A stretch of 22,595 nucleotides of DNA, from the IMG/VR virus record IMGVR_UViG_3300009537_000194, positions 1-22,595 of that record, one strand, 5' to 3'. Under the pieces are notes generated by a model. It searched no databases. It had not been told where the DNA came from and worked only from the letters and a program-made list of their open reading frames with translations. This stretch comes from a virus. Position numbers and translations under genes: made by a program. Within the stretch, counting starts at the first letter, position 1. The number at the start of each line of letters is the position of its first letter. Below, in pieces: positions 12,238 to 18,610 of this stretch.

Positions 12238-12885
12238 CTATGCGGCAACGCTCACCTCTCTCACGGGGTTCGCGTCCACCAGGACGCCGTGACCTCCGAA
12301 CGAGAACATGCGCGTCACGCCGCTCTCGATGTCCCTCCACGCTTCCTCGTCGTGGTACTTGTAGCCCACCCACGTTCCCTCATGGACGGAGCCCTCTGGG
12401 ATTCCGATGGCCGCCATCTTCTCCTGCGTGAAGGCCATGCACTCAACGAGCTTCGCTACCGAGCGCTTGCCGCCGAACCTCGGACCGTGACGTGAGTCTC
12501 CGCGCCTCGAGTTGAGCATGTAGTCGTAGGTCGCCTGCTCGAGCTCCTCGGGCGGTACGATGTGTCCGTGGTGGTCGACCACGGTGGCGCCGTCCCTTGT
12601 CTTGGCAACGGAGAGCCACCCGAACGCCATGCGCTGGGGCTCGTCCGTCTTCTCGATCTTGAGTTGGAGCTCGACGGGTGCGGTATCTGGAAGCTTGGCC
12701 CAGATACCGTCATTACCCCTGCGCCATCCTTCACGCTTCAGTCCGTTCCAGGCATAAGCGTGAGCCCTGGCTGGCGTGTGAATGTAGCTGGCATAGGTCA
12801 GAAGACTACGGAATAAGCCGCGCGCCTCGGCTGGTAGAGCCTTGCGTATCGTAGCTGGAAGCTGGCTATCGCTCTCGTAAACCAA
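12238..12885 (-). CDS. Prohead protease-like protein, ChaB-XkdF fusion
   Basis: I chose TTG 12885 (LVYESDSQLPATI, 215 aa) because GGGGAG lies five bases before it and it makes the protein begin like ChaB domains; a GTG at 12921 would add 12 residues but has no site. Residues about 5-60 match ChaB (LP..IRKALP.EA...F...YA......ARAHAYAWNGLKR). Residues about 80-205 match the XkdF putative serine protease: MAFGWLSVAKTRDG, VVDHHGHIVPPEELEQATYDYML, KLVECMAFTQEKM, GIPEG..HEGTWVGYKYHDEEAWRDIESGVTRMFSFGG. The family is thought to mature the procapsid. It ends in VREVSVAA and a TAG, with the scaffold-like gene beginning 19 bases later. Confidence 0.83.
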   Translation of the reverse strand: MVYESDSQLPATIRKALPAEARGLFRSLLTYASYIHTPARAHAYAWNGLKREGWRRGNDGIWAKLPDTAPVELQLKIEKTDEPQRMAFGWLSVAKTRDGATVVDHHGHIVPPEELEQATYDYMLNSRRGDSRHGPRFGGKRSVAKLVECMAFTQEKMAAIGIPEGSVHEGTWVGYKYHDEEAWRDIESGVTRMFSFGGHGVLVDANPVREVSVAA

Positions 12886-12888
12886 CGA

Positions 12889-12909
12889 TGCTCCCCAAGG
12901 TCGGGAGCA
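12889..12909 (-). promoter_or_regulatory. Hairpin sequestering the ribosome site of the protease gene
   Basis: The minus strand reads TGCTCCC, loop GACCTTG, GGGAGCA: a perfect 7-bp stem, extendable by one G-T pair. The 3' arm contains most of the GGGGAG ribosome site for TTG 12885, so the folded RNA would block initiation. The gene just upstream encodes a Com-like zinc finger, the family known in phage Mu to open an inhibitory stem-loop. If translation actually starts at GTG 12921, the hairpin lies inside the coding region instead. Confidence 0.5.
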
Positions 12910-12963
12910 CTTAGAGGCCACGACGACCGATTGCGATGAAGGTGACAGACTTTTTTCTGGCCG

Positions 12964-13185
12964 TCAACCCCCCGTGAAAAGCATGGCGTTGTCGTCGTCC
13001 TCTGGAACGTCTCCATTCTGGGGCGACGCGTTCACCGCTTTGCACCGCGAGCACTTCACCTGCCACGGCCTTGTGAGCTTGCGAGCGAAGATGCGTTTAC
13101 ACCTCCAGCAGTGTGGCGCTTCATCGATCACCTGCTCTGGGAGCGGCTTTCCTGTTGGTGTCACAATCCATGGTTCACGTGCCAT
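12964..13185 (-). CDS. Com-like zinc finger protein
   Basis: A 73-aa protein with ATG at 13185 and AGGAG six bases upstream; a TTG one codon earlier is less likely. Residues about 26-50 contain CWRCKRIFARKL followed by WQVKCSRCKAVN, i.e. C-x2-C, about 12 residues, C-x2-C-K.hN. This matches the Com family of Mu-like phages, small zinc proteins that bind an RNA stem-loop and activate translation of mom. The remainder is an N-terminal extension (WIVTPTGKPLPEQV) and an acidic tail (VPEDDDNAMLF). It sits between the minor head protein and the protease, with no mom-like gene in the window. A DNA-binding role or a structural role is also possible. Confidence 0.78.
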   Translation of the reverse strand: MAREPWIVTPTGKPLPEQVIDEAPHCWRCKRIFARKLTRPWQVKCSRCKAVNASPQNGDVPEDDDNAMLFTGG

Positions 13186-13194
13186 CAAAGTCTC

Positions 13195-14079
13195 CTATGT
13201 CGGGGTCACGAGTCCTCTAGCACACCTGCACTTTGAGTGGGCCGGAGGACCAGACACGTTTCGGCCTAACACTTCGGATGGGAACTCTTCATCAAGCCCC
13301 ACTTGCTTTCCGTGGAGCTCGCGACAGGTCTTACACGTTCTCGCGCTGACCGGGTCGGCGATCCATTCCTGCTTCGCGTCGCTGGTGACGTAGCCTTCTT
13401 TCCTGGCCACCTTCCAGGCGTGGAGCTGTCCCATCGACTCGGCTTCGATGATCTCGGTGCGCGCTATGTCCTGCGCTCTCAAGCGGAGCAGTTTCTTGGC
13501 GTAGGTGAATGACATCGACTGCGCACGCTTGGGTGATACGCCCTGCTCTAGGAGCCACTCCCGGCGATTCATCACCGCCATGGCATAGCGACCGTGCAGG
13601 CCGACCACGCTCCGTATGGTCTGCGCCGTCTGCTGCACCGTGTAGCCACGCTGGAATGCCAGGCGCACAGCCCGGCGTATGGCGAGCCGCGACTCCTTGG
13701 TAATGCGTTTCACGGTCTTGGCGGTATGCTGGTTGATCCACTTAACGCTGTACGGGTTCACCACGTCGAACTTCAGCGGGATGTTCGAGCGCATGTACTC
13801 GGCAGCCCCGGACTTCTGGAGGATCTTCCGCACCTCGGCGTTGAGCTCCGCCGCCACGCTCTTCTCATAGTCGCGAGGGAACACGGCGTCGATGATGACC
13901 TTGGGCTTGCGGGAACGCGCCGCCTGGCGCATCAGCTTCTCTGTCACCCTGCTCTGCGCCCTGGTCCAGGAGCTGAAGAAGGGCAACGCCACCTTGTCGA
14001 GGAACTCCAACACGAGGCGGTACGCGTGCCGCCACTCCTGCTGGGCCTTGTCTACCGGCTCACGCAGAGCCGTCGCCAT
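13195..14079 (-). CDS. Minor head protein, Mu F / SPP1 gp7-like
   Basis: A 294-aa protein with ATG at 14079 and GAGG at a six-base spacing; a GTG at 14094 has no site. The N-terminal two thirds are basic and helical. The C-terminal 100 residues hold the Phage_Mu_F pattern: RAQDIARTEIIEAESMGQLHAWK, then EWIADPVSARTCKTCRELHGKQV, FPSEV and PPAHSKCRCARG, with the conserved R-T-E, C-x2-C..L.G and PP.H..CRC. Family members are packaged in small numbers with the portal. The gene overlaps the portal gene by 20 bases, as usual for this pair. Confidence 0.9.
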   Translation of the reverse strand: MATALREPVDKAQQEWRHAYRLVLEFLDKVALPFFSSWTRAQSRVTEKLMRQAARSRKPKVIIDAVFPRDYEKSVAAELNAEVRKILQKSGAAEYMRSNIPLKFDVVNPYSVKWINQHTAKTVKRITKESRLAIRRAVRLAFQRGYTVQQTAQTIRSVVGLHGRYAMAVMNRREWLLEQGVSPKRAQSMSFTYAKKLLRLRAQDIARTEIIEAESMGQLHAWKVARKEGYVTSDAKQEWIADPVSARTCKTCRELHGKQVGLDEEFPSEVLGRNVSGPPAHSKCRCARGLVTPT

Positions 14080-15817
14080 CTTCGTCCTCGGCACCTGGTG
14101 GGGTAGGCGGCGGTGGCTTCACTGGCGGCTCCGGTGGGGGTGGAGGTTCCTTGCCAGGGCCACCGCCTATGGGTGGTTGGACCTTTGGTGGAGGTTTATG
14201 GCCTCGACCTAACTCGCCGAGGATAGCGTGTGCTCGCTCCCGCTTGATAGGGAAGCCAGCGACGATCACCTCGATGCCAGATTCTCTCGGGATCTCACCA
14301 GACGCGACCTTGGCCATCACGTCGAGCAGCGCGGTGATCTGCGCACCGTTCAGCGTCTCCTTGGGGTCGACCGTGGGCACTGCCTCGCTCTTCGCGGCGC
14401 CTTTGGCAGCCGGAGGAGCCTCTGGGTCGTCTGGGTTCGGTGGCTGGGGTGGATCGTCCACGTCGGGTGGATCGTCATCATCCCTGTCACCTCCGCCACC
14501 TGCCGCCATGTCCTCGTCAGCTATCTCTGGAAGGTTCCCGACGTTTCGGTACTTGCGCTCGATGCCTGGATCCGGCGTGAGCGCCCCGCTCATCAGGCCG
14601 TCCTTGATGTAAGTCGCGAACTCCAGGAGGTCCGGAGCATCGATGTCGCCCCTGTTTAGGACAGGGATGCGCTCCGTGGGGATGCCGTTGAGCTTGGCCA
14701 ATACGTCGACACCCTCGGTCTGGAGCGTGTCCCGTACACTGTCGGCGATGCCCTCCAGGGCCAACTTGAATAGCTGGCTCTTGTTCACGTCGGCAGACTG
14801 TGAGCCTACCTTGTCCATGGCCGTGAAGAGGAACCCGCCGAGCAGTGCCATGCCCATGCGGGTCTCTCTCCGTTTGATAACTTTGTCGAGGTCGAACTGC
14901 TTGCCCCCGCTGCCGCCCATGGTGCGCAGCTTGTATCCAGTTGGGTTGCCCTTGTCGTCGAGCTCCGCCGGGATCACGGCGCCCATCTGCTCGTCGATGC
15001 GCACGTTGACGATGATGCTCTTGACGAGCTCCAGGATCGCCTTCTCGTTGTCGGTGGCAGAGTTCGACAGCAGCCGCTCCGGCACCTCGAAGATCGGGAA
15101 CCCCACGAGGTCGCGCTCGGCGCCGATGCCTTCGATGGCCTCTAGCTGCCGAATGTCCATCCAGGTCTTGTAGACGGGACGGAACAGCGACCAGCCTTCC
15201 GGGTTGTTCTTGTGTGGCCGGTTGCGGAAGTGGATCGACTTCGCCGACGGGATGAACTTCATCTCATACTTCGGGGCGGCGCGCTGCCACATACCGAGCA
15301 CTAGGCCGGTGTCCTCGTCGTACTGCCAGTGGTCGAGCGTCTCCTGGGCTCGCATAGCGATAGAGCCCCAGCCTATCTTGCCGTCGGTGTACTTGCTGTT
15401 CTTGATCTTCTCGTCGCTCTCGCCCTGCCTGCGCTTGTAGGTCACCTCGTTGACGGCGTGCCCGAAGTGCAAGATCGTGAGCGCCTCCTCGATCAGCCCG
15501 GTCCACGTCTGTGCCATGTCCTCCATGCACTCACTGATGAAGTCGGCTTCCTTCTCACCGCCGTCTACCTTCTTCGCCGGCTCCATCCACCAGTCGATGC
15601 GCCCGACGAACGTGCGGATCGCGTAGAGCATGGCGCCGAGGATGGCCGAGTTGTCGTGCATCTGGCGGTAGACTTTCACCGCCTTGGGACCGGAGAGCTT
15701 GGTGTGCAGCTCTTCGATGATGTAGCCGCCGTACCTGCGTAGGCCGCTGGTGCCTATCTCAGCGAAGTTGTCAATGCGCTGCTCCTCGGACCACTCCTTG
15801 GCTGGCTCTAACGGCAT
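14060..15817 (-). CDS. Portal protein (DUF935-like)
   Basis: A 585-aa protein with ATG at 15817 and GGAGG seven bases upstream. The start MPLEPAKEWSEEQRIDNFAEIGTSGLRRYGGYI, the segment HDNSAILGAMLYAIRTFVGRIDWWMEPA, YGxxHAVNEVTYKRR (here HFGHAVNEVTYKRR), the YDEDTGLVLGMWQ, IHFRNRPHKNNPEGWSLFRPVYKTW and ALLGGFLFTAMDK are typical of the portal family found with Mu-F-like partners. It forms the dodecameric DNA channel. The C-terminal 150 residues are unusual: an Asp/Pro-rich linker, a small helical segment (LNGAQITALLDVMAKVASGEIPRES) also seen in family members, then a long proline-rich tail ending in acidic residues. Terminase genes lie upstream. Confidence 0.9.
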   Translation of the reverse strand: MPLEPAKEWSEEQRIDNFAEIGTSGLRRYGGYIIEELHTKLSGPKAVKVYRQMHDNSAILGAMLYAIRTFVGRIDWWMEPAKKVDGGEKEADFISECMEDMAQTWTGLIEEALTILHFGHAVNEVTYKRRQGESDEKIKNSKYTDGKIGWGSIAMRAQETLDHWQYDEDTGLVLGMWQRAAPKYEMKFIPSAKSIHFRNRPHKNNPEGWSLFRPVYKTWMDIRQLEAIEGIGAERDLVGFPIFEVPERLLSNSATDNEKAILELVKSIIVNVRIDEQMGAVIPAELDDKGNPTGYKLRTMGGSGGKQFDLDKVIKRRETRMGMALLGGFLFTAMDKVGSQSADVNKSQLFKLALEGIADSVRDTLQTEGVDVLAKLNGIPTERIPVLNRGDIDAPDLLEFATYIKDGLMSGALTPDPGIERKYRNVGNLPEIADEDMAAGGGGDRDDDDPPDVDDPPQPPNPDDPEAPPAAKGAAKSEAVPTVDPKETLNGAQITALLDVMAKVASGEIPRESGIEVIVAGFPIKRERAHAILGELGRGHKPPPKVQPPIGGGPGKEPPPPPEPPVKPPPPTPPGAEDEDGDGSA

Positions 15818-18190: not shown

Positions 18191-18610
18191 TTAGGAGTCG
18201 GCTGCAGGTGGGCTCATCCCGACAAGTCTCAAGACGCACTTCCAGCAGATGGGTAGTCTTGGGATAACCTCGTGGGCGTTCTGGAGGAACTGGAGCGTGG
18301 CCCTTGGGTTGTCGTCGTCGGATCCACAGATCGGTTCTCCCTTGAGCTCGACGAAGGCTGGCGCCCAGTCCAGCGGTGTGCTGATGTGCCAATGCTTCGG
18401 GCGGGACTCTTTCTCATTGGCCCATTCGACCTGTCCCTCCAGGTCAGTGATCCTGTCCTGATGGTTGCGCAGTGAGTCGATGAGGTCTGCGATATCCTCC
18501 TTCTTGAGCGTTGCATGCGACAGTCCTTGGCGAACCTGAAGCCGAAGACTGTCGATGATCCTGTTGAGTATCTCCTTGCCGACCACTGGATTGCACTTCA
18601 CCACCGCCAT
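18191..18610 (-). CDS. 139-aa hypothetical protein of the small-gene cluster
   Basis: ATG at 18610 with GGAGGAGCAGTC directly upstream; it overlaps the end of the preceding gene by 13 bases. The protein has an N-terminal helical part (GKEILNRIIDSLRLQVRQGLSHATLKKEDIADLIDSLRNHQDRITDLEGQVEWANEK read as successive helices), probably a coiled coil, then a globular part with HWHISTPLDWAPAFVELKG and a C-terminal LPICWKCVLRLVG with a C-x2-C pair. No family recognised. It is the last gene before the gap upstream of terminase. Confidence 0.78.
   Translation of the reverse strand: MAVVKCNPVVGKEILNRIIDSLRLQVRQGLSHATLKKEDIADLIDSLRNHQDRITDLEGQVEWANEKESRPKHWHISTPLDWAPAFVELKGEPICGSDDDNPRATLQFLQNAHEVIPRLPICWKCVLRLVGMSPPAADS

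Follow-up and report, generated by a model that had tools for sequence, protein, structure and literature searches.

How is the translation of a phage prohead protease gene controlled when its ribosome site is folded into an RNA hairpin and the gene immediately upstream encodes a small zinc protein? The question arises from an uncultured phage represented by a 22.6-kb IMG/VR virus record, which we analyzed over its whole length and refer to as the window. Its minus strand encodes, in this order, terminase, portal, a MuF-like protein, a 73-aa zinc protein, protease, more head genes, cement, capsid and tail proteins. The com gene and the protease gene do not overlap; they are separated by a gap of 78 nt beginning behind the com stop at 12964 (Table 1). 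A sequence-only reading of the same DNA had proposed that the zinc protein is related to Com of phage Mu and acts at the nearby protease start. To our knowledge, Mu Com is so far nearly a single case, and it serves one DNA-modification gene.

Table 1. Features at and around the com–protease junction of the window.
Feature	Position	Strand	Basis or remark
MuF-like minor head protein	13195..14094	-	5' neighbor of com; PF04233 43.2 bits (cut-off 29.6)
Com-like zinc-ribbon protein, 73 aa, CWRC-x15-CSRCK	12964..13185	-	ATG 13185; PHROG 6417
ChaB-XkdF prohead protease, TTG start	12238..12885	-	PF14550 and ChaB match; start from homologs
GGGGAG ribosome site of TTG 12885	12891..12896	-	sequence; opening cost 9.0-11.8 kcal/mol
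Anti-Shine-Dalgarno arm CUCCC	12903..12907	-	overlaps mini-hairpin 3' side
Stem-loop hiding ribosome site	12888..12910	-	seven Watson-Crick pairs and G-U wobble, 7-nt loop
Putative Com-box mini-hairpin CGUG-G-C[CUCUAAGU]G-C-U	12906..12922	-	pattern match and model R1, 11.8 bits
Small open frame MTARKKSVTFIAIGRRGL*, putative	12911..12967	-	translation; restart or frameshift at com stop (TTGA)

Judged by its sequence, the 73-aa protein is a divergent, distant relative of Com. It matches PHROG 6417 ('translational regulator') with an E-value of 1.3e-4, compared with 2.8e-10 for Mu Com, and shares 29-53% identity with the Com-like proteins of other phages and 20% with Mu Com. The four-cysteine zinc module C-x2-C...C-x-R-C-K is present, and residues C26, C29, C45, R47, C48 and K49 are invariant across 16 members including Mu Com; this profile match and these residues bear out the Com-like gene that had been claimed directly upstream of the protease gene. 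A search of Pfam family PF10122 with the window protein gave no match. Most members match this family (10 out of 16 including Mu Com, with E-values of at most 0.1); in the three non-Mu members with a recorded PF10122 score, this score is below the cut-off.

The protease is of the XkdF type (Peptidase_S78_2; PF14550, 55.9 bits at a cut-off of 24). Its residues 9-64 match positions 1-59 of the Pfam ChaB profile, and its residues 1-31 match positions 1-31 of an NCBIfam ChaB model, in each case below the curated cut-off. Only four homologs with such a ChaB-like domain fused N-terminally to an XkdF protease (12885-12238, minus strand, in the window) were found (L055/L223, L315, L316 and L317). All four open with M-P-[YF], the window protease with M-V-Y; the start of L055 is anchored by a stop codon two codons 5' of its ATG, and in L315 the protease likewise starts with TTG. 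The start residue common to these homologs confirms TTG 12885, the start chosen in the sequence-only reading. That reading had also conceded that translation from GTG 12921 would speak against control at the stem; the four homologs and the ChaB profile rule out this codon as the protease start, and the objection is therefore removed. No Shine-Dalgarno-like (SD-like) sequence lies 5' of GTG 12921. Within the protease coding sequence, a perfect 10-bp stem with a 9-nt loop is found at 12709-12681 (minus strand).

On the minus strand, the hairpin in front of TTG 12885 reads 5'-GUGCUCCC-GACCUUG-GGGAGCAU-3', with GACCUUG as the 7-nt loop. The 7-bp stem that had been described as covering GGGGAG is indeed there: seven Watson-Crick pairs from 12909:12889 to 12903:12895 are extended by a terminal wobble, G12910-U12888, and the fold reaches -14.6 kcal/mol over 30 nt (z -3.7; 0 out of 200 shuffles as stable), with a pair probability of about 1 in its context. 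Of the six bases in the ribosome site (12896-12891), which is spaced 5 nt from the TTG codon, five are paired in the stem. As such, the stem is no commoner than chance, the minus strand of the window holding 12 perfect stems of 7 bp or more (loops of 3-10 nt) versus 13.4 +/- 3.4 in shuffles. What stands out is its position and the occlusion of the SD: opening is predicted to cost 11.8 kcal/mol in a 100-nt context, rank 1 among 28 gene starts, and 9.0 kcal/mol in a 40-nt context, rank 2.

These numbers bear on a static reading, in which the stem and the TTG codon keep protease output low because only small amounts are needed, while the Com-like protein has its target elsewhere in the genome, or none in the vicinity. 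The chance frequency of stems of this size in the window agrees with such a low-output start, as do the strong occlusion of starts without Com, e.g. those at 18610 and 12248 (40-nt context), and the weakness of the Com-box copy in the gap, to which we return below. Set against this are the first rank of the occlusion among the 28 starts, directly behind a Com-like gene, and the fact that the window's only stringent Com-box match falls into the same 78 nt; hence we regard a purely static start as rather unlikely, if still a serious competitor. Further local structures in the window deserve mention. No local hairpin of the window is stronger than the one that buries the SD of the small ORF at 18610-18191 (minus strand; 12.2 kcal/mol, 40 nt), and this ORF has no Com nearby. 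A head-tail adaptor gene (8006-7581, minus strand) also starts with TTG; its SD, TAAGGAG, lies within the hairpin GAGCTCC-CGTAA-GGAGTTC, and this hairpin and the protease stem have GCTCCCG in common.

The gap between the two genes could also be used by the ribosomes themselves. They would restart at the TTGA of the com stop or slip on the G6 run at 12973-12968, at the end of com, read MTARKKSVTFIAIGRRGL, stop at 12911 and melt the stem, whereupon the protease start would be used. The frame stays open between the end of com and 12911, where it closes one base short of the stem, and the G6 run is suitably placed; the close spacing between MuF and protease genes in the relative L055, where the protease gene follows after 6 nt, points in the same direction. 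However, the SD spacing is poor for the TTG of the overlapping TTGA, and no relative with the same gene pair occurs among those examined, so that such coupling appears improbable. The stretch at 12973-12911 (minus strand), G6 run and open frame together, may in its own right encode a frameshift product or a leader peptide with a basic tail.

The order MuF-Com-protease was absent from about 200 portal or protease relatives, surveyed as 80 portal loci and 77 + 15 + 35 protease loci. Neither Com nor the hiding stem is found in the four ChaB-XkdF homologs, an absence compatible with a joint gain of the two and likewise with coincidence. Single-protein pattern scans yielded no close relatives. A family-wide Com alignment was dropped as scan query for want of conservation, and a DNA pattern for Com-like genes was used instead, which covers at least 120 IMG/VR stretches. 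In nearly all of these stretches among the matches listed, com is located after the tail terminator and before the major tail protein; the window gene at the corresponding place (6348) has no Com ahead.

Reading 3' of the listed com genes, we first noticed a repeated word, GUG-x-C...GU-G-y-C. The element in the Com phages is a mini-hairpin of the form GUG-x-C[C/U..GU]G-y-C, mostly in tandem and 40-100 nt ahead of virion genes, in which the x:y pair is C-G, U-A, A-U or G-C. In order to avoid circularity, the anchor letters alone were searched, complementarity not being required, in leader sequences of 120 nt in front of the small gene (PHROG 7924) that precedes the major tail protein. The anchor was present in 20 out of 28 deduplicated leaders, and x:y was complementary in 23 of 24 leader cases versus 8 of 32 in control DNA (P 5e-8). 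A broader pattern was found in 22 of 22 leaders, and most of these contain a pair of hairpins, one around -90 and one around -60. Both inner pairs were a condition for collecting the 39 instances analyzed; they are distributed as 19 C-G, 14 U-A, 5 A-U and 1 G-C at one position and 30 C-G and 9 G-C at the other; the outer (third) pair, on which no selection was made, is G-C in 35 instances and G-U in 4.

A covariance model built from the 39 instances (R1) ties the element to the presence of Com. Within 645 kb of Com loci it scored 15.8 bits or more at 93 sites, versus 3 sites of at least 15 bits in 665 kb without Com, and the com strand carries all of the 78 matches for which the strand was counted. 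Whole records contain a match in 17 of 18 cases with Com and in 4 of 32 without; in these comparisons the controls are other phage groups, mostly sampled at head genes, with whole records entering the latter comparison only. Among the Com-containing records outside the R1 training set, 8 of 9 have a match. Further targets are tail assembly chaperone genes in three loci (L106, L113 and L362); the R1 matches at the chaperone start V-S-L-R-D in several loci were set aside, coding being the probable explanation. Microcystis phage Mae-JY09 possesses the small gene (PHROG 7924) with neither the leader nor, among the genes listed there, a Com. In the leaders of Arthrobacter Laroyevirus phages, CGTGTC is present, with no clear hairpin, and no Rfam family matches the ten sources searched or the window gap. 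A conserved GATACACT-like box 5' of the first hairpin in the L350-L360 leaders is perhaps a promoter of the leader transcript.

The genes behind the element tend to have occluded ribosome sites as well. For 23 target genes, the predicted cost of SD opening has its median at 5.2 kcal/mol, versus 3.2 kcal/mol for 179 controls drawn from these loci (P 6e-4). Among 11 leaders that form one group, a CCUCC abutting the 5' side of the hairpin is a predicted partner of the ribosome-site GGAGG; this pairing is kept in 11 of 11, and since its changes are one-sided (G-C to G-U), it indicates conservation, not covariation. Altogether, a covarying hairpin ahead of occluded ribosome sites at about 105 non-redundant loci with Com lends independent support to the earlier suggestion of a Com-like protein acting at a nearby start. 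We hold the link between Com-like genes and the element across the family much more firmly than any switch in the window, and consider it the stronger find: a Com-like protein together with a conserved, covarying hairpin before structural genes suggests a widespread, so far undescribed RNA switch of virion genes.

The direction of such a switch can be read in the opposite sense, with the Com-like protein stabilizing the closed leader and thereby shutting translation of the protease or tail gene late, or regulating its own synthesis. Covariation and occlusion are silent on direction, and in the other phages a mini-hairpin forced to form is mostly insufficient on its own to open the ribosome site, which is compatible with repression. 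Yet Mu Com, the studied relative, is an activator (PMC6483171), and among the explanations considered here repression seems to us the least probable, a very unlikely one.

The window gap, too, carries one match to the family pattern, at 12922-12906, with the pairs 12919:12906 (G-U), 12918:12907 and 12917:12908. It lies 41 nt beyond the end of com; where com is the gene immediately upstream in other phages, the first copy is mostly 42-53 nt away from the com stop (range 23-53). The stringent pattern has no other match on either strand of the window and occurs in 1 of 10,000 shuffled gaps (P about 1e-4), its loop length and last base having been widened after the window copy was seen. R1 assigns this copy 11.8 bits, with an E-value of 0.0014 for the gap and of 0.36 for the whole window, and in 96 kb of GC-matched background, taken mostly from the head genes of other phage groups without Com, 4 matches reach 11.8 bits or more. 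Two better R1 matches in the window fall inside coding sequence, at 10468-10443 and 10185-10161 (minus strand); they lie in the cement and capsid genes, flanking the capsid start, and are perhaps a coincidence of coding. A looser hairpin pattern matched 14 times in the window, near the background rate, and therefore provides no evidence by itself. The copy in the gap is atypical in being single, in its 8-nt loop (5-7 nt in the others) and in its outer G-U pair. A derived copy of the element in the gap is thus indicated, if weakly. The site of the protein would likely be this mini-hairpin over the 5' arm of the stem, weak as the match is, rather than the 7-bp stem.

Because nucleotides 12910-12906 are common to both structures, the mini-hairpin and the hiding stem are mutually exclusive. 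When the mini-hairpin is forced, the predicted cost of SD opening in the window drops from 12.8 to 3.3 kcal/mol. Relative to the hiding stem, the mini-hairpin is about 11 kcal/mol costlier to form in the folding model, a high price for a small zinc protein. Given that the forced hairpin mostly leaves the ribosome sites of the other phages closed, a switch by mutual exclusion would be peculiar to the window.

We give roughly even chances to the complete chain of events for the window, that is, a translational switch similar to Mu com/mom that has been transferred to the protease gene. According to this model, the gap would act as an RNA leader in which the protease ribosome site is closed by default. 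The Com-like protein, product of the gene just upstream and presumably made in late transcription, would bind the leader; binding would swap the hiding stem for the mini-hairpin and most likely open the protease start, as Com does for mom. Protease synthesis would thereby wait on late Com expression.

In Mu, Com binds the loop of a hairpin with a C-G closing pair, adjoining an inhibitory stem (PMC6483171). Both systems have a small four-Cys zinc protein encoded just upstream of its target (putative in the window) and a next gene whose start is closed by an RNA stem (as predicted for the window). The C-G-closed hairpin with a pyrimidine-first loop beside the inhibitory stem in Mu (PMC6483171) would have its counterpart in the weakly matching mini-hairpin of the window. 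The systems differ in the target, which in the window is a PF14550 protease instead of mom, and in the stem, which hides the SD and not the start codon. Moreover, the window genes are separated by the gap and do not overlap, the mini-hairpin overlaps the stem, and the protein has diverged to the low identity with Mu Com given above. The 7-mer GAGCAUC, common to the Mu com site and the window, was set aside because it is partly SD and the identity of the two proteins is so low.

Closer in sequence are the Com-like proteins of the IMG/VR phages (e.g. L127, L174 and L108), mostly 40-53% identical to the window protein, with a similar hairpin before an occluded ribosome site. In contrast to the window, the targets there are the tail chaperone gene and the small PHROG 7924 gene ahead of the major tail protein, two hairpins are usual, and com is mostly located behind the tail terminator. 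Among actinobacterial phages, Rhodococcus phage Perlina is also described as carrying a Mu-like com gene, which the authors flagged for follow-up (PMC11556095); we liken it to the window gene by this description, and the passage on it mentions no target or RNA element.

Extended to the family, the model becomes a phage regulon: Com-like proteins would recognize tandem GUG-x-C[..GU]G-y-C hairpins and gate the translation of tail or head genes, and in the window this control would have moved to the prohead protease, where it would time capsid maturation. We put this forward tentatively, at slightly less than even chances. If it is true, a covarying element tied to Com in many diverse phages would constitute a general means of timing the synthesis of virion proteins. 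The targets would then be predictable from sequence alone, and the family would offer orthogonal protein-hairpin pairs for RNA tagging.
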